Shown: positions 1,808-17,660 of the stretch, in pieces
Position numbering within the stretch: position 1 is the first letter of the stretch
Layout: the number at the start of each line of letters is the position of its first letter
Assembly (NCBI GenBank): GCA_016781505.1
Contig: JADDQF010000052.1
Coordinates: forward strand, 1 to 32,700
DNA length: 32,700 nt
Direction: 5' to 3'
DNA from: a bacterium
GTDB lineage: Bacteria > Chloroflexota > Chloroflexia > Chloroflexales > Kallotenuaceae
The notes under the pieces: generated by a model
The model's database searches: none
What the model saw: only the letters and a program-made list of their open reading frames with translations
Told to the model about the DNA's origin: nothing
Translations under genes and position numbers: made by a program

Positions 1808-3297
1808 CTAGTGGGCCAGTGCCGGCGCTGATGCAGGGTCTGCTTCTGCATCCGGTGGGCTGGAGCGGCGCAGAAACAACGCGAGGACAAGCCCCAGCAG
1901 GGCGATTCCACACGCGACAGCGAAAGCACCATGCAGGCCACTTGTCAGCGCTGCCTGCCGCACAGCGGGATCGGACGAATTGGCGGCGCTGCGTAGGTAC
2001 GCCTCCGTGCCGGTCGCCATGATCGTACGAGCAGTGCCGTGCCCACTGCTCCGGCGACTTGCTGCAGGGTGCTGAAGATCGCGCTGCCATGCGCGTGGAG
2101 CGAGCGGGGCAGCTGATTCAACCCTGTTGCAAAGATGGGCGTGAACAGCAGCGCCAGACCGGTATTGAACGCGATGTGCAGCGCCAAGAGGATCCCGACC
2201 GTCGTTGCAGCGGTAAGCGTTGTGAAACGCCACAACGCGACGACCAGCAACGCTGCGCCCGTGGTTGCGAGCGCAAGCGGGCCATAGCGATCAAAGATGC
2301 GGCCCACGAATGGCGCGGCCACCCCCATCAAAACACCCCCTGGCAGCAGAAACAGCCCGGTCTGCAGCGGCGTGAATTGGCGGATCGTTTGGAGGTAGAT
2401 CGGTAGCAGGATCGCCGAAGCGAACAGTGCCATCATGACGACCATGATCAGCACCACACTCAGCGAAAACATGCGGTAGCGAAAAGCGCGCAAATTCAGC
2501 AGCGGAGCCGGCAGCGTCATTTGCCGCCAGCCAAAGACCAACAGGCTGAGTACGCCGACCACAAGTGGCACCAGAACATAACTGCTGGTCCAGCCGCCGC
2601 CCTCACCCGCGCTGCTGAAACCGTACACCACGCCGCCGAAGCCGAGCGCGGCCAGTACCACGGATAGGAGATCAAGCGAGGCGCTGCGCGTTTCGCCAAC
2701 GTTGACGAGGTAGCGGGCACCGTACACCAGCACGCCAACGGCGATCGGCAGCACAAAGAAGAACAGGTAGCGCCACGACAGCGACTCCACGATCAGGCCG
2801 GAGATCGTCGGCCCCAAAGCAGGCGCAACCGAGATCACAATGCTGACGGTGCCCATCACGGAGCCGCGCCGCTCGATCGGGATCAGCGCGAGAATCGTAG
2901 TGGTCAGCAGCGGCAGCATGATCGCCGTGCCGGAGGCCTGGCAGACGCGGCCGAGCAGCAGCACGGCAAAGTTCGGGGCGCAGCCGGCCACCAGCGTGCC
3001 CAGCGAGAAAACGCCCATTGCCGCTAGATACAGTGTGCGGGTGGTCAGGCGCTGCATCAAAAAGCCCGTCGTCGGGATCACCACCGCCATCACCAGCATA
3101 AACGCCGTGGCCAGCCATTGCGCTGTGCTTGCGCTGATCTGCAGCTCCGCCATCAGCTTGGGCAGTGCCACGTTCATGATCGTCTCGTTAAGGATCACCA
3201 CGAACGCTGCCACCAGCAGCGTCAGAATAATGCTCATGTCACGCCGTGATGTTTCCTGGGCAACGTTCGGGATTGCTATCGTAGTGTTAGAAAGCAT
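1808..3297 (-). pseudogene. DHA2 (EmrB/QacA) drug exporter, frameshifted near the C-terminus
   Basis: This is a 14-helix major facilitator of the DHA2 drug:H+ antiporter group, with LNETIMNVALPKL in helix 1 and GPTISG in helix 5. The ATG at 3297 follows AGGAG; a TTG at 3333 would overlap the upstream exporter. The frame is intact for about 423 residues to GTALLV, then a one-base loss near 2025-2027 diverts it into a 25-residue nonsense tail ending at 1945. The adjacent frame continues with the expected TIMATGTEAYL, a last hydrophobic helix (GAFAVACGIALLGLVLALFL) and a stop at 1808. The restored protein would be about 496 residues. Either the last helix is lost in vivo or this is a sequencing error. 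It lies 25 bp behind the intact exporter, probably in one transcript. Confidence 0.8.
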
Positions 3298-3322
3298 AAC
3301 GTTTTTTGCTCCTGAAGCAGAC

Positions 3323-5176
3323 TTATTCTCCAACAGTCGACTCCGAGGGACGGCTCTTGCCTAGTGGAATCTCCGGTAGCCACACCACGATTACCAGCAG
3401 CGCAACCGCCGACAACGGAATTGCAAACAGGTAGATGCGGGTGACGCTGGTGGCATACGCTGTTTTCACGGCGCTTGTAACCTCCTGGCCGATACCCACT
3501 GCCTCTGCGCGCACCGCCTGCTCGGCAGTGTCGATTGCGCTGTGGGCCAATGCCAACGCGGCCGGATCGCTGCCGGCATTGCCGGCGACGATCTCCTTGA
3601 CCTCGGGCAGGGTTTCTGAACTGCTCAGCAGTTGGGCGCGCGCCACAGCGTTCCCGTTCAGTGTGGCCTCGAGCAAGCTGCGCTGCTGTTCAAATGGCGC
3701 GACGGCAGCAGCTGCTAGCTGAGCGCCAAGGTCCACCGGCTCACCACTCGCTCCCTCCCCTGCCGTAGCGCTGCTTTGGAACTGGGCTGGATCGAGCGCC
3801 AACCGTACCGCGGGAGACACTTGTTGGCTGAGCTGGGCAAAGTTCTGCTGCAGCTGCGCCGTGAGCGTGGTCGTCAAAATTACGCCAAAGACCGCACCAC
3901 CGAGCGCTTGCCCGAATTGTTGAAAGAACTGCCGGTTGGCCGTTACGGCGCCAATTTGCTGGGGCTGCGCCGCGTTTTGCATCGCGAGGTTCAGCAGCGG
4001 CATAGCTGGTCCTAACCCAACCCCCATCAGAAAGACTCGCCACGCTACGTTCCACACACTGGTGTCGGGCGTAAGCCGGGACATCAGCACAAAGCCGACG
4101 ATCATCAAGGCAAAGCCGCCCACAATAAACGGCTTGTAGCGGCCAAGCCGCTGTACGAGCAGCGAGCTGACGTTGCTCGCCAGAACGAAGCCAGCCATCA
4201 GCGGAATCTGCGCAATACCCGCCTCAGTCGCCGTTAGGTCGAGTACATTGACCAGGAACAGCGACAAGAACAACACCGCGCCAAAGAAGGCAGCACCGCT
4301 CAGCAGCGCCGCGACGACCCCGACCGCAAATGTGCGGTTGCGGAACAGCGCCAACGACAGCACCGGCGATGGGACGCGTAGCTCGACCAGCAAAAACAGC
4401 ACAGTGCAGATCGCCGCGACTGCGAAGTAGCCGAGAATCAAAGGCGACGACCACGGATGAACAGTTTTGTCCAGCGTCAGGCCGAGCAGCAGCGGCACGA
4501 CCGCGCCGATCAGCAGCAGGGTGCCAAGCCAATCGATCCGCGCACGTAAGCCGCTGGCCATACGGGGCATTTTGGTCCACACGAACCACAGCGCAATCAC
4601 GCCTAGCGGCACGTTGACGTAAAACACCCAGTGCCAAGATATCTGGTCAGTCAGCAAACCACCCAGGAACGGGCCAACCACGCTGGCCAAGCCAAAGACC
4701 GCCGGAAACAATCCCATATAGCGCGGCCGTTCGGCCGCAGCAAACAAATCGGCGGGCGTAGCAAAGGCGGTTGACGTGATCGCCGCAGCGCCAATCCCCT
4801 GCACGACGCGAAAGACAATTAGCTGCAGCATGCTTTGGGCAATGCCGCATAGGCCCGATCCCAGGAGAAACACAACAATGCCCCACAGCAGAACAATCTT
4901 GCGGCCATACAGGTCCGACAGCTTGCCGTAAATCGGCACCATGGCGGTGCTGGCCAGCAGGTACCCGGTCGAAACCCAACTCACCAAGCTCAATCCATTG
5001 AAGTCGCGCACAATCGCCGGCAGAGCCGTCGCAACAATTGTCTGGTCAAGCGCCGCAAGAAACAAGCTCAGCAGGACGGCCCCCAGAACAAGGAGCTTGG
5101 TCGCGTGTGGCAATGTTGCCGCGTAGTCAACCGGTTGCTGGGGCAGCTGCTTTGTTGATACATCCGTGACTGCCAT
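3323..5176 (-). CDS. DHA2-family (EmrB/QacA) multidrug efflux MFS transporter
   Basis: This 617-residue inner-membrane protein has the marks of 14-helix drug:H+ antiporters: [13 protein letters not shown] (motif D1) in helix 1, [10 protein letters not shown] (motif A) after helix 2, and GPFLGG (motif C) in helix 5. A long polar loop rich in Gln, Ala and Glu (about residues 440-570) precedes the final helix and basic tail, as in larger DHA2 members. The ATG at 5176 follows AGGAGA; a second ATG at 5248, also behind a purine-rich stretch, would add an uncharacteristic 24-residue lead. It sits between a MarR regulator and a second exporter, all on the minus strand, a usual layout for inducible efflux. 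The substrate cannot be read from sequence. Confidence 0.9.
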
Positions 5177-5255
5177 ACATTCTCTCCTTCTCGGCCGCGG
5201 ATTGCCGGATGCGCTGAGGCCAGCTGTGCACCAAACTACGACTAACATAAAAATG

Positions 5256-5334
5256 CCTACCCTTCTCCTGAGCGATTCCGTGATACAAGCGGTGTTGTTC
5301 CGCCCGTACCCTCGTCGCTGAGGTACAGGGTAGG
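5256..5334 (-). promoter_or_regulatory. Inverted repeats in the exporter leader
   Basis: CCTACCCT (5256-5263) is the complement of AGGGTAGG (5327-5334), with a smaller GTACC/GGTAC stem between them. They lie in the 183 bp separating the MarR stop from the exporter start. They could form an mRNA leader structure, or mark the end of the marR transcript; no T-run is present. Function is speculative. Confidence 0.25.
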
Positions 5335-5359
5335 CCCGATTATCGCGCCGGCAGCGGCG

Positions 5360-5854
5360 TTAGTCCGCCGCGGTTTCCACTATAACTGTTGGAAGCTGCG
5401 TTTTTGACAGCTCGTCCGTGATTGACCGTAACAGCGTGATCGTCTGCGTCACCAATGGGGGTGGTAATTGGAGCAGTTGCTGAGCCATTGTTTCGGCCCG
5501 CGCTGCCTGTAGCCCTGCAAGCACTGCCTGGCCCTTCGGCGTGAGCTGCACCAGCTTGTGCCGCCGGTCCTTTGCGTTCTCAACGCGGGTGACGTATTCC
5601 AGACAGACCAACTTGTCTACTAGCAGGCTTGCATTCGCCAATGTGTAGTTCAGGCGCACACCAATCTCCCCAATCGAACTTGCTCCTTGGCGCTCGACCA
5701 GCGCAAGCACGGCAAGCAAGGGCAGTGTAAGCTCGGCTTGCCGCACAAACCGCAACAACGTGTCGGTGTCACAGTGCAGCACTTGCGCAACAAAAACGCT
5801 CAGCACCTCGCTAAGCTCCTCGTGCGCTGTATCGGTACCCGCTTGATGGTTCAT
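5360..5854 (-). CDS. MarR-family regulator of the adjacent exporters
   Basis: This 164-residue winged-helix protein has the MarR layout: dimerising N-terminal helix, helix-turn-helix (SIGEIGVRLNYTLANASLLVDKL), and a wing with the conserved DRR in NAKDRRHKLVQLT, then a long C-terminal helix. MarR proteins repress efflux genes and release DNA when they bind phenolics, drugs or oxidants. The ATG at 5854 is preferred over a TTG nine bases upstream; neither has a strong ribosome site. It is first in the minus-strand set with two DHA2 exporters. A good promoter lies just upstream at 5890-5918, and it is divergent from a second, unrelated marR gene. Its operator was not recognised. Confidence 0.88.
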   Translation of the reverse strand: MNHQAGTDTAHEELSEVLSVFVAQVLHCDTDTLLRFVRQAELTLPLLAVLALVERQGASSIGEIGVRLNYTLANASLLVDKLVCLEYVTRVENAKDRRHKLVQLTPKGQAVLAGLQAARAETMAQQLLQLPPPLVTQTITLLRSITDELSKTQLPTVIVETAAD

Positions 5855-5889
5855 AACACTCAATACTCAAGAAGCCTTAACTAAATATA

Positions 5890-6043: not shown

Positions 6044-6085
6044 TTGACATGCTCATGGTTTAGCGCTAAACTATGAGCATGTCAA
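6044..6085 (+). promoter_or_regulatory. 42-bp near-perfect palindrome holding the promoter and start of marR
   Basis: Bases 6044-6085 read the same on both strands except at 6057/6072. The outer arms are TTGACATGCTCAT and its complement, and the core is GTTTAGCGCTAAAC. The left arm begins with a perfect -35 TTGACA (6044-6049); after 17 bases the core ends in the -10 TAAACT (6067-6072). The start expected about seven bases on falls at the ATG at 6079, so the mRNA may be leaderless. The core recurs at 6546-6559. This is very likely the autoregulatory operator of the gene it overlaps. Confidence 0.8.
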
Positions 6086-6528
6086 AAATGGATCGCGTGC
6101 GAGGACAAAGTTTACGTCGGCCGGGGGTGTTAGCCTGGATCAGGCTGGCGCGGGTGTTTCAAAAGATCAGCACGCGCTCAGAACGGTTCTTTCGCCTGCA
6201 TGGATTGAACACGGCTTATTTTGATATCCTGGCCAAAGTGGGCGCCGCCGAAGGCATCACGCAACAAGAGCTGGCCGCCGCGCTGCTTGTTACGAAGGGG
6301 AATATCTCGCAGCTGCTCACGAAGTTGGAGGAGGCGGGGTTAGTCCGGCGTCGTCAGGAGGGCCGCTCAAACTGTTTGTCACTCACGGAACGTGGGCAGA
6401 CGCTCTTTCAGGCGCTGGTGCCGCAGGAGGAATGTTTAATTGCCGATTTGCTGGCTCCACTTTCGAATGACGAGCAGCACGAGCTGCTTCGTTTACTGCG
6501 CAAACTGGATCATGCGCTTAAGCCATAA
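6079..6528 (+). CDS. MarR-family regulator, probably of the ring-cleavage dioxygenases
   Basis: This 149-residue MarR protein has a helix-turn-helix (ITQQELAAALLVTKGNISQLLTKL, about residues 60-83) and a wing (RRRQEGRSNCLSLTERG). Cys99 lies in the wing and Cys119 in the C-terminal helix; MarR proteins of the MhqR/YodB/OhrR type sense quinones or peroxides through Cys or a ligand pocket, so redox sensing is possible but unproven. In-frame ATGs occur at 6073, 6079 and 6088 and none has a ribosome site. I chose 6079 because the promoter in 6044-6072 predicts transcription from about that base. A copy of its operator core lies just downstream of its stop, ahead of two dioxygenase genes. Confidence 0.87.
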   Translation: MSKMDRVRGQSLRRPGVLAWIRLARVFQKISTRSERFFRLHGLNTAYFDILAKVGAAEGITQQELAAALLVTKGNISQLLTKLEEAGLVRRRQEGRSNCLSLTERGQTLFQALVPQEECLIADLLAPLSNDEQHELLRLLRKLDHALKP

Positions 6529-6538
6529 TTTTTTTTGC

Positions 6539-6560
6539 GATAATAGTTTAGAACTAAACT
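6539..6560 (+). promoter_or_regulatory. Second MarR operator upstream of the dioxygenase operon
   Basis: AGTTTAG-AA-CTAAACT (6545-6560) is an inverted repeat whose core GTTTAGNNCTAAAC is identical to the centre of the palindrome at 6058-6071. A GATAAT (6539-6544) abuts it and may be a -10; TAAACT (6555-6560) is the alternative by analogy with the marR promoter. No good -35 is visible for either. It lies 218 bp before the first dioxygenase. The gap also holds the palindrome GGCAGGCCTGCC (6610-6621). Confidence 0.65.
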
Positions 6561-6778
6561 AAAGCGAGGATCGTTGGGACCAGTGAATGCTTGGTACGTA
6601 TGCTGGGAAGGCAGGCCTGCCGTAACTGTTCGGAGGTGCAGGGCAAAAACAAGGCCGGTTATCTAGGCCTGTGAAGCCCCAGATGTCTCGCTGTACGTGA
6701 AATCAAAGCTACTCGGGCGTCATCGGTATGCCTGTGTGGTTGTAAACATACTTGTCTGCAGGTGAGGAAGAAAATACG

Positions 6779-7756
6779 ATGCAACAACTGATCGGCGTCC
6801 ACCATGTCAGCGCGCTCAGCGCTCATATTGAACGGACACATACTTTTTATACGCAAGTGCTTGGACTACGGCCGGTCATCAAGACGGTGAATCAGGATGC
6901 TCCCAGCATGTACCATCTGTTCTACGGCGACGGGATCGGCGGTCCTGGCTCCGACATGACGGTGTTTGATATGCCGAACGCTGTTCGCGAACGCCGCGGC
7001 AACAACAGCATCTCGCGCACAACCTTTCGTGCAGGCGGCGCAGACACGCTGGAATATTGGGCTGAGCACTTGGGCCAGCATGGCATTCCCCACAATGGTA
7101 TCTTGGAGCACGACGGACGGCGCGTGCTCGCCTTTGACGATCCCGAGGGAACGCAACTGGAGCTAGTCGACGATGGCGGCATAGGTACAGCCTATCCTTG
7201 GGACGAGAGCCCAGTACCGGCCGCGTACCAGATCCGCGGACTGGGCTACATCGTGATCACGGTCCCGGTGCTCGCTCCCACCGACCGCTTTCTGACCGAA
7301 GCGCTCGGCCTCCGCCGCGACCACGCCTACGCCTCGGCCGAAGATCAGCGGTGCAACGTTCATGTCTACACCATGGGCAATGGCGGAGCGCACGCCGAGG
7401 TGCACGTGGTCGTCCGAGACGATCTGCCGCGCGCTCGATACGGTGCGGGTGGTGTACATCATGTCGCGCTGCGCGTCCCTGAGGGTGAACAGATCGACCG
7501 TTGGGTTGAACGGCTTGACGCACATGGCTTCCGCAACTCAGGCGTGGTTGATCGGCACTACTTTGCCTCGACGTATGTGCGCGAGCCGAATGGCGTGCTC
7601 TTCGAGCTGGCTACGGATGGACCAGGTTTTGCGGTAGACCAGCCACTTGACGGCGAACGACTATCACTGCCGCCCTTTTTGGAAGGGCGGCGCGCAGAAA
7701 TTGAAGCGCAGCTTAAACCACTGACAACGGTACCGGCCGAACGACCGGTACCGTAA
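6779..7756 (+). CDS. Ring-cleaving dioxygenase (glyoxalase/VOC fold, PcpA/MhqO type)
   Basis: The 325-residue protein consists of two vicinal-oxygen-chelate modules, as in the iron-dependent extradiol hydroquinone dioxygenases PcpA, MhqA and MhqO. The metal-ligand positions are visible: His-His at 8-9 (GVHHVS), His-His at 227-228 (GGVHHVAL) and Glu276 (LFELATD). This spacing is almost that of PcpA (His11, His227, Glu276). It would open the ring of a hydroquinone or catechol-like compound. The ATG at 6779 follows GAGGAA; a TTG at 6752 is not preferred. It is followed 11 bp later by a paralogue. In Bacillus, related genes are controlled by the quinone-sensing MarR protein MhqR, which supports control by the neighbouring marR. 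The exact substrate is unknown. Confidence 0.88.
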
Positions 7757-7767
7757 GGGAGGAACTA

Positions 7768-8718
7768 ATGGACCTTTTGGGTATTCATCATCTGACAGCG
7801 GTCTCGGCGCAGATCCGTGAGAATAAGCGCTTTTACACCCAGACGCTTGGCCTGCGGCTTGTCAAGCGCAGCGTTAATCAAGACGACGTCAGCGCCTACC
7901 ACCTGTTCTACGCCGACGCCAAGGGGACACCCGGCACAGACCTCACCTTTTTCGATTGGCCAGTCCCGCGAGAACGACGGGGCACGCGCTCGATCACGCG
8001 CACCCATCTGCGGGTAGCCGGGCTTGAAGCACTGCAGTGGTGGGCTCAGCACTTTCGAGAAACCGGGGTGACTGCCAACGAAATCGGGGAGCGCGATGGC
8101 CGTTTGATGCTCGATTTCGAGGATGGGGAAGGCCAGCGCCTCACGCTGATCGATGATGGTGGCGTTGGCGCTGCCTTTCCATGGGAGCCGAGCCCCGTTC
8201 CCGCCTCGTATCAGATCCGCGGTTTAGGCCCGATCATGCTGAGCGTGCCCGCGCTACACCCGACTGACACCATCCTGCAGCGAGTAATGAACATGCGACC
8301 GGTGCGTGAGTACGCGCATCCAGAACATGCTGGGGACACCGTGCATGTGTATGAGATGGGACCAGGTGGTGTTCACGCCGAGCTGCATGTTGCCGTTCAA
8401 CCCCATCTGCCTGTTGTACAGCCAGGTTCCGGTGGCGTCCATCACGTCGCGTTCCGCACACCGACCTTTGAAGAGTACGACGGCTGGGCCGACCACTTGA
8501 ATAGACTGAGTGTCCCAAACAGCGGCAAGGTGGATCGGTACTGGTTTCGCAGCCTGTACTTCCGCGAGCCGAACGGCATTCTGTTCGAGATTGCCTCGGA
8601 TGGCCCGGGCTTCGCAGTGGACGAGGACGAGGCCACGCTCGGCGAGAAGGTCGTGCTGGCACCTTTTCTGGAGCCACGGCGGGAAGCCATTGTGGCGAAC
8701 CTGAAGCCAATCGACTAA
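7768..8718 (+). CDS. Ring-cleaving dioxygenase, tandem paralogue
   Basis: This 316-residue protein is a clear paralogue of the preceding one, with the same two-module VOC fold. It has the same ligand motifs: LGIHHLTA at the start, GGVHHVAFR in the C-terminal module and [12 protein letters not shown] with the ligand Glu. The ribosome site GGGAGG lies between the two genes, so both are on one transcript. The two copies have diverged widely outside the motifs, which suggests different substrates or a hetero-oligomer rather than a recent duplication. It would protect the cell from quinones or degrade plant-derived aromatics. A weak AACAT/ATGTT stem follows the stop. Confidence 0.88.
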
Positions 8719-14071: not shown

Positions 14072-14273
14072 ACGCCTGTGGTATTCACTCCGGCATTAAG
14101 GGCGTGTGAAACAGCCGTTGCCATCGGGTTGCTGCACGTGCTCCACTGATCAATTTCGGCAACCAGCGTTACCTCCCCGCATTCTGCCGCCCATTGTGGT
14201 CCCGTGCTTGCTAAGGATGCGCAGGCGGTGTTGTATTTGGTGCCACGGAAGAATAGGATACGCTATCTTGAAA

Positions 14274-15482
14274 ATGCCGATTCACATGCTCCGAACCGTG
14301 CCGGGATCGGTGTGGCTGAGCTGCAGCTACTTTTGGTATCTTGCCGCCATCGGCTGCCTTGGCCCCTATATCGGCTTGTACTATCGCCTGCTCCAGCTCA
14401 ACGGCATACAGATCGGGTTCTTGGTAGCAATCCCACCACTCGGAATCGCCGTGCTGGCACCACTTTGGGGCGGTTTTGCCGACACGTATAGTGCCCACCG
14501 GCTGGTGCTGCGCGCAACATTGCTGATTGCAGCACTGTCGGCCTTGTTGATCGCATGGACCACGAGCTTTGTGCCGCTGCTGCTGTTAACGGTCCTGCTT
14601 GCGAGCTGTTTGGCTGCTATTCCCGCGCTCCTGGACTCGTATGCAGTAACGATCAGCGAACGGAGCGGCCTGTCCTATGGGCAATTTCGGGTCTGGGGCA
14701 CGATTGGTTTTATTGTCGGGGTCTGGTTCGTCGGCTGGCAGATGGGCCAGAACATTTCGCACTTCTTTCTGCTGGCCTATACTGCGACCCTGCTGATAAC
14801 CTGCGGCGCGACCTTCGGCCTGCCCCCACTACGGCGCTCGTCAACGCAGCCGATGTGGGAATGTGTTTCGGAGATCCTGCATGATCGATCCGTCACGCTG
14901 GTGCTGCTGACAAGCTTTTTGGTTATTGGCAATGCTACCATGATGGGCAGCTATTTCGGCATTTATCTAACCGAGATTGGCGGCTCGATTAGGTTAGTGG
15001 GCACGGCGGCGGTGCTGGCGGCGGTCAGCGAAGTGCCGATCATGCTGTTTGGCCGACGATTCATCGAGCGCTTTTCAAGCCGTAAGATCTTGATCTTTGC
15101 GGTGGCCATGTACACCATTCGTTTGCTGCTGTACAGCCTTCCCCCTGCAGCAGCCTGGGTGGTCTGGGTGCAACTGTTGCACGGCATGTCGTTTGGGCTG
15201 TATCTGATGGCCTCGGTGACATTGGTGCATCAACTGGCAGGACGGGAGCGCGCGGCGACTGCCCAAGGATTGCTTAGCTCCTCGTCACAGGGGTTTGGCG
15301 CAATCACCGGGGCGCTGATTGGCGGCGTGCTTTTAGATCAAATGGGTGCAGTGGGCATTATGCGCGTGGCAAGCGTTGGCATGTTTGTGGCGCTGGCAAT
15401 CTGTCTTTGGGGTGGGCAGATCGTGATGGCGCGACGGGCTGCGACGAATTCTGTGCTCAAGCCCAGCCAAGAGCAGCGCTGA
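14274..15482 (+). CDS. MFS permease, probable sugar or oligosaccharide importer
   Basis: The protein (about 402 residues) has 12 predicted membrane helices and resembles the MFS_1-like group (sugar and nucleoside permease type) rather than drug exporters. Helix 1 begins SYFWYLAAIGCLGPYIGLYY and the loop after helix 2 reads GGFADTYSAHRLVLR. The start is uncertain: the frame is open from 14106, but the first ~55 residues are Cys/Arg-rich and unlike a transporter. I chose the ATG at 14274, preceded by GGAAGAATAGGA; another ATG is at 14286. TTGTAT and TAGGAT, 17 bases apart, lie just upstream as a possible promoter. Divergence from the GH43 gene suggests uptake of its substrate. Confidence 0.78.
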   Translation: MPIHMLRTVPGSVWLSCSYFWYLAAIGCLGPYIGLYYRLLQLNGIQIGFLVAIPPLGIAVLAPLWGGFADTYSAHRLVLRATLLIAALSALLIAWTTSFVPLLLLTVLLASCLAAIPALLDSYAVTISERSGLSYGQFRVWGTIGFIVGVWFVGWQMGQNISHFFLLAYTATLLITCGATFGLPPLRRSSTQPMWECVSEILHDRSVTLVLLTSFLVIGNATMMGSYFGIYLTEIGGSIRLVGTAAVLAAVSEVPIMLFGRRFIERFSSRKILIFAVAMYTIRLLLYSLPPAAAWVVWVQLLHGMSFGLYLMASVTLVHQLAGRERAATAQGLLSSSSQGFGAITGALIGGVLLDQMGAVGIMRVASVGMFVALAICLWGGQIVMARRAATNSVLKPSQEQR

Positions 15483-15731: not shown

Positions 15732-15757
15732 CCCCACGATCATGCATGATCGTGGGG
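15732..15757. terminator. 26-bp perfect palindrome between convergent genes
   Basis: CCCCACGATCATG and its exact complement meet head to head, giving a GC-ended stem with only a tiny loop. It lies between the ends of the convergent permease and xylulokinase genes, so it probably terminates both ways. T-runs are short, TTGTTG on the minus side. Confidence 0.5.
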
Positions 15758-15972: not shown

Positions 15973-17484
15973 TCATTCTTCGGCCGCAGCTGCGAGTGCG
16001 CCAAAGGTTGGCTTAAGGGCTGGATACAGCTCCCGGTAAACGCCATGCAATTCGTCGTAATGCCGCAGCCGCTGTGCATTTGGTTCGACGGTATCACGTG
16101 TGGCAACTCCCGCGGCGACGGCTGCGCGCACATCAGGATACACCCCGGCCCCCACGCCTGCCAACAGCGCCGCGCCGAACGCTGGTCCTTCCTCCACGGC
16201 CATCGTGGTGATTGGGCTGCCAAGAATGTCGGCCTGCAGCTGCCGCCATAGCTTGGAGCGTGCGCCACCTCCGATGGCACGTACCTCGTCAAGGTTAAGG
16301 CCAAGCTCGCGCATGATCGCTAGCCCATCGCGCAGGCTGAAAACCACACCTTCCAACACTGCCCGCACCATATGCCCGAGCCCATGGCGAAGTGTCAGGC
16401 CAACAAACGCCCCACTCGCCAATGGGTCACGATGAGGAGTTCGTTCGCCGGATAAGTAGGGCAGGAAGATGAGACCTTCCGCTCCCGGTGGTGTTTGTTC
16501 AGCTAATCCCACCAGCTGGTCGTAGCTCAGATCGGGCAGCAGTCCACGCAGCGTATTCCTGAGCCATTGAAACGCGCCGCCCGCGCTGAGCGTGACGGCC
16601 ATCAGGTGGTAGGCGTCGGGAACGGTGTGACAGAACGTATGCAAGCGCCCTTCCGGATCAAGGCGAATCGCATCGCTGTGGGCGAACAACACGCCACTGG
16701 TACCCAACGACGAGCTGATCACACCATCACGAATAATGCCGGTGCCAATCGCCGCCGCCGCATTATCACCACCGCCGGCGATCACCGGGAGGCCTGTCGG
16801 CAGCCCAAGCTCCTCCGCGGCTGCGCGTGTGAGGCGGCCGGTTACCTCAGGGCCTTCATACACTCGGGGCAGCCACTCACGGGGAATTTCCAGCGCTTGG
16901 ACGATCTCATCCGACCAGTCGCGCCGTGTCAGATCGAGGAGCAGAGTTCCGGCCGCGTCCGAGGCATCGCTGGCGTATTCGCCGGTCAGCTGGAGCCGGA
17001 TAAAATCTTTGGGTAACAACACCCGGCGCACGCGGGCGTAATGGTGCGGCTCATGCTCGCGCAGCCACAGCACCTTGGGTGCTTGAAAGCCTGCCAACGC
17101 CGGATTGCCGGCGATGGAGATCAGCCGTTCAGCTCCAACGCGTTGGGTGATTTCGACGCATTGTGGACCTGTCCGTCCATCATTCCATAACATGGCAGGA
17201 CGAATAACCGCGTCGCGCTCATCCAAGAACACGGCGCCGTGCATCTGGCCCGTCAGTCCGATCCCTGCGATAGCGTCAGCCGGGATGCCAGCCGAAGACA
17301 CAACCCGTTGGATCGCCGCTCGACTGCCCCGCCACCAGTCAGCCGGATCTTGCTCACTCCACAGTGGGCGTGGATTAGACAAGCCGTATTCTTCCGTGGC
17401 TGTGGTGCTGACCTGTCCATCAGCCGCGACAAGGACAGCTTTCGCGCCACTGGTTCCCACATCTAAGCCGAGCAAGTAGCTCAT
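15973..17484 (-). CDS. xylB: Xylulokinase
   Basis: This 503-residue protein is a FGGY-family carbohydrate kinase of full length. It phosphorylates D-xylulose with ATP to D-xylulose 5-phosphate, feeding the pentose phosphate pathway. Visible features are LLGLDVGTSGAKAVL with Asp8 in the phosphate loop, GLTGQMHG (77-83, xylulose binding), AMLWNDGR, PKDFIRLQLTGEYASDASDA, and the catalytic base Asp240 in AGGGDNAAAAIGTG. The C-terminal ATP side has GGGARSKLWRQLQADI. The ATG at 17484 follows GGGAGA. The upstream 176 bp end in a fragment that resembles the tail of a sugar isomerase, so a xylA-xylB pair may once have existed here. Its own promoter was not identified. Confidence 0.93.
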   Translation of the reverse strand: MSYLLGLDVGTSGAKAVLVAADGQVSTTATEEYGLSNPRPLWSEQDPADWWRGSRAAIQRVVSSAGIPADAIAGIGLTGQMHGAVFLDERDAVIRPAMLWNDGRTGPQCVEITQRVGAERLISIAGNPALAGFQAPKVLWLREHEPHHYARVRRVLLPKDFIRLQLTGEYASDASDAAGTLLLDLTRRDWSDEIVQALEIPREWLPRVYEGPEVTGRLTRAAAEELGLPTGLPVIAGGGDNAAAAIGTGIIRDGVISSSLGTSGVLFAHSDAIRLDPEGRLHTFCHTVPDAYHLMAVTLSAGGAFQWLRNTLRGLLPDLSYDQLVGLAEQTPPGAEGLIFLPYLSGERTPHRDPLASGAFVGLTLRHGLGHMVRAVLEGVVFSLRDGLAIMRELGLNLDEVRAIGGGARSKLWRQLQADILGSPITTMAVEEGPAFGAALLAGVGAGVYPDVRAAVAAGVATRDTVEPNAQRLRHYDELHGVYRELYPALKPTFGALAAAAEE

Positions 17485-17660
17485 ATGCTCTCCCTTTCCT
17501 GCCTCCCAGCACGAGGGTGGCTGCTTCCTGTAAAACGCAGCTAACAACACTGCAGCTTCGGCCCCGCTTGTGCCGCATGACGAGGCTTGAAGGTGCTAGC
17601 TCCACTGCTTAGCGCACGCCGTGCAACAGCTCGACGGTCAAACTGGCATGCATTGAGCTC

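Follow-up and report, generated by a model that had tools for sequence, protein, structure and literature searches.

A putative MarR-type repressor gene with a palindromic operator in its own promoter and a probable leaderless start in a Chloroflexota genome

What is the role of a long palindrome that covers both the promoter and the first codons of a regulatory gene? Such a palindrome, 42 bp long, lies at positions 6044-6085 of the stretch of a Chloroflexota genome analyzed here (32,700 nucleotides; hereafter the window), at the 5' end of a gene of the MarR family (marR). An inverted-repeat search returned it as two arms of 21 nt each, 6044-6064 (TTGACATGCTCATGGTTTAGC) and 6065-6085 (GCTAAACTATGAGCATGTCAA), 95% complementary and separated by a gap of 0, with G6057/T6072 as the sole mismatch, and it was the best-scoring palindrome in the window. 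In 20 simulated windows (first-order Markov), arms allowed up to one mismatch reached a maximum of 9-12 nt, compared to 21 nt at 6044-6085, and no second palindrome with 21-nt arms and at most two mismatches was found in 371,062 bases of the same genome, consisting of the window and 338 kb in 20 stretches. The palindrome is far above chance expectation and is the longest in the 371 kb scanned, and the symmetry of every pair except 6057/6072, as described in an earlier note on this DNA, was borne out by the repeat search. Elsewhere in the window, a perfect 26-bp palindrome (CCCCACGATCATGCATGATCGTGGGG, 15732-15757) sits between convergent genes at 14106-15482 (plus strand) and 15973-17550 (minus strand), and is possibly a two-way terminator.

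Both strands of the 42-bp element carry promoter boxes, as the earlier note had also read them. On the plus strand, facing marR, the promoter is TTGACA-17-TAAACT, with the -35 box at 6044-6049 and the -10 box at 6067-6072, the latter made up of the right half of the core operator described below plus T6072. The minus strand mirrors this arrangement as TTGACA-17-TAAACC, with the -35 at 6080-6085 and the -10 at 6057-6062. The gene that follows (6079-6528, plus strand) encodes a MarR winged-helix domain (PF12802, E 6e-14; PF01047, E 9e-11, both over the gathering score) with the recognition helix LLVTKGNISQLL. Three in-frame ATGs are present at its 5' end (6073, 6079 and 6088), and a start before 6067 is excluded because an in-frame TAA (6067-6069) lies inside the -10 box. 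We rejected the mechanical ORF start at 6073, which abuts the -10 and lies 5' of any plausible RNA 5' end. The favored start codon is 6079-6081, 7 nt past the -10, where the RNA 5' end is also predicted to lie.

The functional core of the palindrome is much shorter than its full length. It is a 14-bp operator, GTTTAGNNCTAAAC, at 6058-6071 (O1; conserved part GTTTAGcgCTAAAC; GTTTAGCGCTAAAC in the form of a 20-bp duplex), delimited by its copies and by the relatives, and it spans the 3' half of the promoter spacer and five of the six bases of the marR -10. An 18-mer of O1, TAGTTTAGNNCTAAACTA, is repeated perfectly at 6544-6561 as a second operator, O2 (TAGTTTAGaaCTAAACTA), which is separated from the marR stop codon by 15 nt and precedes the downstream genes. 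In the whole 4.18-Mb genome GTTTAGNNCTAAAC occurs twice, both times flanking marR (6058-6071 and 6546-6559), and a reversed control pattern occurs 0 times. The base that breaks the symmetry at O1 is G6057, and O2 has an A there. A palindromic operator overlapping the regulator's own promoter is in keeping with MarR regulators, the sites of which are typically 16-20 bp long (PMC6798810, PMC5401885). The earlier proposal that promoter and operator form one element is supported, but the start codon and first codons of marR do not belong to the conserved operator: the 14-bp core stops short of them and they lie in the outer arms only.

Examination of the gene neighborhood revealed two VOC/glyoxalase-fold genes resembling ring-cleaving dioxygenases downstream of O2, identified by domain search and by comparison with relatives. 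The first (6779-7756, plus strand) is the presumed target of regulation, and the second (7768-8718, plus strand) is a paralog presumed to belong to the same operon; the tandem pair (6779-8718) is about 53% identical. Many relatives, as well as Listeria and Bacillus, have a downstream operator copy, an adjacent dioxygenase gene, or both; RefSeq names the neighbor in Listeria and Bacillus a ring-cleaving dioxygenase. A stretch of T residues precedes the downstream operator by a few bases in the window (6530-6561) and in loci L008, L009, L011, L014 and L024. On the other side of marR, a second and different MarR gene (5360-5863, minus strand) precedes a pair of DHA2-type MFS efflux genes (1945-5863, minus strand).

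To place the element in a comparative context, relatives of marR were collected from 200 genomes of the group and from genome contigs, giving 54 loci after orientation, and were scored with thresholds of at least 10/12 for an operator match and at least 4/6 for a TTGACA-like -35. Upstream of marR, 37 of the 54 loci carried both, with the operator placed between the TTGACA -35 and a TAAACT-like -10, and the forward -10 was exactly TAAACT in 29 of these 37. The start codon fell 7-8 nt past the -10, equivalent to position 6079, in 22/37 loci and across several families, whereas other offsets averaged 1.1 loci each; the corresponding binomial probability (P ~3e-18) ignores relatedness and overstates the significance because the loci are kin. 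The RefSeq-annotated marR start of Deinococcus taeanensis has the same +7 spacing. A search for the layout alone, using no protein query, returned three sites in 82 genomes of the order, each of them at this marR, and the reversed pattern returned 0 sites in the same 82 genomes.

Leaderless genes have been recognized by a TANNNT-like -10 about 10-12 bp before the start codon, and are reported to make up about 5% (a few percent) of genes in Chloroflexi (PMC3160421). TAAACT begins 12 nt before 6079 and fits this description, and the spacing is the same to within 1 nt in 22/37 relatives. Across 371 kb of this genome, TANNNT motifs 6-7 nt before starts showed a slight excess only, which together with the few percent reported for Chloroflexi indicates that leaderless starts are not the general mode of the genome. 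About 12 of the 37 relatives had no start near +7, several of these having leaders with Shine-Dalgarno-like sequences, and some relatives, Listeria included, have a longer leader of this kind. Leaderlessness in this subfamily thus appears to be common but not universal. Because the start spacing is conserved, a leaderless marR mRNA beginning at 6079 is well supported by comparison and is probably the best reading, if short of proof; the start at this ATG that the earlier note expected is strongly backed by the relatives.

Which protein might recognize the operator? When the recognition-helix region was aligned with the operator, helices of the form VT[K/R]GN paired with GTTTAG operators, and VTQGN helices paired with CTTTAG..CTAAAG in loci L034 and L036. 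The comparison was then carried outside the phylum, to plasmid-borne MarR relatives. In Deinococcus taeanensis, a locus outside the set from which the VTQGN rule had been formed, the helix is VTQGN and the operator is CTTTAGTTCTAAAG, so that the rule also fitted there and the VTQGN-CTTTAG pairing is independent in Chloroflexota and Deinococcus. Deinococcus sp. NW-56 has the helix VTRGN and an operator, GTTTAGTCCTAAAC, that lies over the start codon itself (GTGTTTAGTCCTAAACAC), preceded by a TTGACG/TACACT promoter with the GTG at +7; at this locus (L085, 540-565), the operator over the GTG is inside a perfect 24-bp palindrome, CTTGTGTTTAGTCCTAAACACAAG, located 3' of the separate promoter. In Listeria innocua and Bacillus badius, VTKGN helices go together with GTTTAG sites (a match of 11/12 in Bacillus), and a ring-cleaving dioxygenase gene adjoins. 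No such site was found in D. deserti, where the helix is FTEGN, and neither a GTTTAG nor a CTTTAG operator was found upstream of the VTPGN relatives, all from one genus (L041-L043 and L045-L047, in genomes of genus g40). The covariation of helix residues with the operator points to binding of this operator by the MarR protein itself.

The sequences themselves show the operator and its pair of copies, their conservation, the start-codon spacing and the covariation of helix and operator, and on these grounds the element is very likely a promoter through which a MarR-type repressor controls its own gene, with transcription probably starting at the initiation codon. We can postulate the following course of events, in which the binding of the repressor and its effect, the 5' end of the RNA and the class of ligand are predictions. 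A MarR dimer would bind GTTTAGNNCTAAAC, over the 3' spacer half and the -10 minus its last base, and would shut RNA polymerase out of the marR promoter, while O2, 15 nt past the marR stop, would place the downstream genes resembling ring-cleaving dioxygenases under the same protein. Once the repressor was released by an aromatic or quinone-like ligand, transcription would proceed from about 6079, the A of the ATG, to give a leaderless marR mRNA. Autorepression by MarR proteins is of a well-known kind, and what this member adds is a layout that is cleanly conserved, together with a rule of specificity.

The single mismatch of the palindrome raises the question of promoter direction. The earlier note treated the whole 42 bp as an operator and a nearly symmetric bidirectional promoter that G6057/T6072 could make one-way. 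The presence of TTGACA-17-TAAAC[T/C] on both strands suits this idea, as does the fact that the only mismatch falls on the last base of the -10, where 35/37 loci have a T on the side of that box, and bacterial transcription from symmetric sequences in both directions is known (PMC12825309). However, the mirror base varies freely (A in 15 loci, G in 11, T in 9 and C in 2), and T6072 is fixed by the -10 while its partner is not, so that in most relatives the asymmetry is an ordinary one between a -10 T and a free base. TAAACT occurs on both strands in 12 loci, including the nearest ortholog (L008), none of which has a full mirrored TTGACA; the reverse -35 match is mostly 2-4/6 among the loci and reaches 6/6 in this window only. 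Direction in those 12 loci presumably comes from the one-sided TTGACA, and it follows that the -35 normally sets direction. As a general rule, then, a single asymmetric base that decides direction is not supported.

Other observations weigh against the bidirectional reading as well. The outer arms are not conserved; TAAACC serves as the forward -10 in L020, so a weak reverse promoter may exist in the window; the nearest minus-strand gene, the second MarR gene at 5360-5863, is preceded at 5918-5890 by a promoter-like TTGACA/TACAGT that belongs to it; and this neighbor pair was not found at the same place beside marR in other loci, nor did the relative loci show any conserved, divergently oriented gene that a reverse transcript might serve. 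We therefore regard the bidirectional reading of the whole element as quite unlikely. Since both boxes are mirrored here, what chiefly still distinguishes the core promoters of the two strands is the last base of the -10, and a one-base direction switch is possible in this window alone. It is decidedly improbable that, in this lineage, polymerase docks both ways on one 42-bp palindrome that has taken in the operator, the -35 and the opening codons of a leaderless gene, with a single -10 pair choosing the strand.

If the 14-bp core suffices for the autoregulated promoter, how did the symmetry come to extend so far beyond it? In the window 13 of 14 outer positions are symmetric, compared to 3-10 of 14 in the other loci, and pairing the left arm of one locus with the right arm of another gave a mean of 4.5 and a maximum of 10 over 1,332 pairings. 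Two of the 13 outer pairs are expected from the layout because the CA of TTGACA faces the TG of the start codon. Judged from these comparisons, the extension of the arms is real, is not due to chance, and is specific to this lineage. It is conceivable that template switching from one half of the operator-promoter region to the other (quasi-palindrome correction) made the arms, and that the 42-bp symmetry is a mutational scar instead of a selected site. Such a process has been documented to extend the arm identity of imperfect inverted repeats (PMC3820800, PMC8604942), and it agrees with the confinement of 13/14 symmetry to a single lineage and with the finding that 0 of the 1,332 cross-pairings exceeded 10. 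However, the nearest ortholog, at 79% protein identity and with 7/14 outer pairs, is too distant to show the state before the event, and selection is an alternative source of the arms. Template switching is the simplest source of the outer arms, and we hold it with a confidence a little short of even; it concerns the arms only and is compatible with autorepression by MarR.

The selective alternative is that the outer arms form an extended operator for a second MarR dimer or for longer contacts. The very low probability of the arms arising by chance and the perfect 28-bp palindrome on the same core in L030 would fit such an operator, but the outer arms contain no copy of the TTTAG half-site, O2 lacks any extension of this type, typical MarR sites span the 16-20 bp noted above, and mean outer symmetry in the other 35 loci was 5.1 compared to 4.5 expected, a marginal excess. 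We consider an extended operator unlikely. The palindrome could also act as RNA: in transcripts reading through from upstream, a 19-pair hairpin would hide the start codon and restrict translation to the leaderless mRNA. The segment 6030-6130 does fold at -38.4 kcal/mol (z -4.2), compared to a z of -0.7 for RNA from 6079 on, and an mRNA starting at 6079 would exclude the hairpin; however, such folding is common to any long palindrome, the fold is not conserved in relatives, and no Rfam family matched, making this role very improbable. The extended symmetry in this genome is probably incidental, and the outer arms are dispensable for the proposed repression mechanism.

These results define an operator for a MarR subfamily that spans Chloroflexota, Deinococcus, Listeria and Bacillus, together with a specificity rule in which one residue corresponds to one base pair (VTKGN with GTTTAG, VTQGN with CTTTAG). 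They also describe a conserved promoter layout from which the repressor seems to be made without an mRNA leader. The 42-bp version offers a natural test piece for promoter direction with a nearly symmetric -35 and -10.

Among solved structures, the best-scoring by sequence was PDB 2fbk (E 3.3e-10), which we take to be the HucR-type MarR of Deinococcus; the similarity is weak and makes it a fold-level relative only. Among the papers searched by text, the commonest operator forms did not turn up in a regulatory context: the letters occurred mainly in primers or probes for tick pathogens and in unrelated text, and in MarR papers as a primer or an unrelated site. A parallel in layout may be drawn with MhqR, the quinone repressor of Bacillus subtilis and Staphylococcus aureus, a MarR protein whose own promoter carries an inverted-repeat operator and which controls ring-cleaving dioxygenases, as the two VOC/dioxygenase-like genes downstream of marR would suggest here. 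However, the MhqR operator, TATCTCGAA-aTCGAaATA, differs in sequence and lies at -6 to +12 of the transcription start (PMC6798810), whereas GTTTAGNNCTAAAC covers part of the spacer and the -10; the mhqRED operon of S. aureus begins with MhqR, whereas here O2 follows marR; and a leaderless start is predicted here. The bidirectional promoters of Warman and co-workers likewise owe to symmetry the ability of polymerase to engage in both orientations (PMC12825309), but they share one -10, while this element has two in the arms of a repressor palindrome, the reverse one lacking the final T. CrtR of Corynebacterium glutamicum is a MarR regulator for which a leaderless transcript has been reported and whose short palindromic site lies close to the promoter (PMC5401885), although it is divergent to carotenoid genes, its site is of the TTAA type, and its own promoter motif is not evident. 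In Streptomyces coelicolor, both operators of SCO3205 are upstream of the gene and their consensus, TTnAAnnnTCAA, is different, but there too MarR operators were predicted from the upstream sequences of orthologs, and those of SCO3205 were then verified (PMC3737563).
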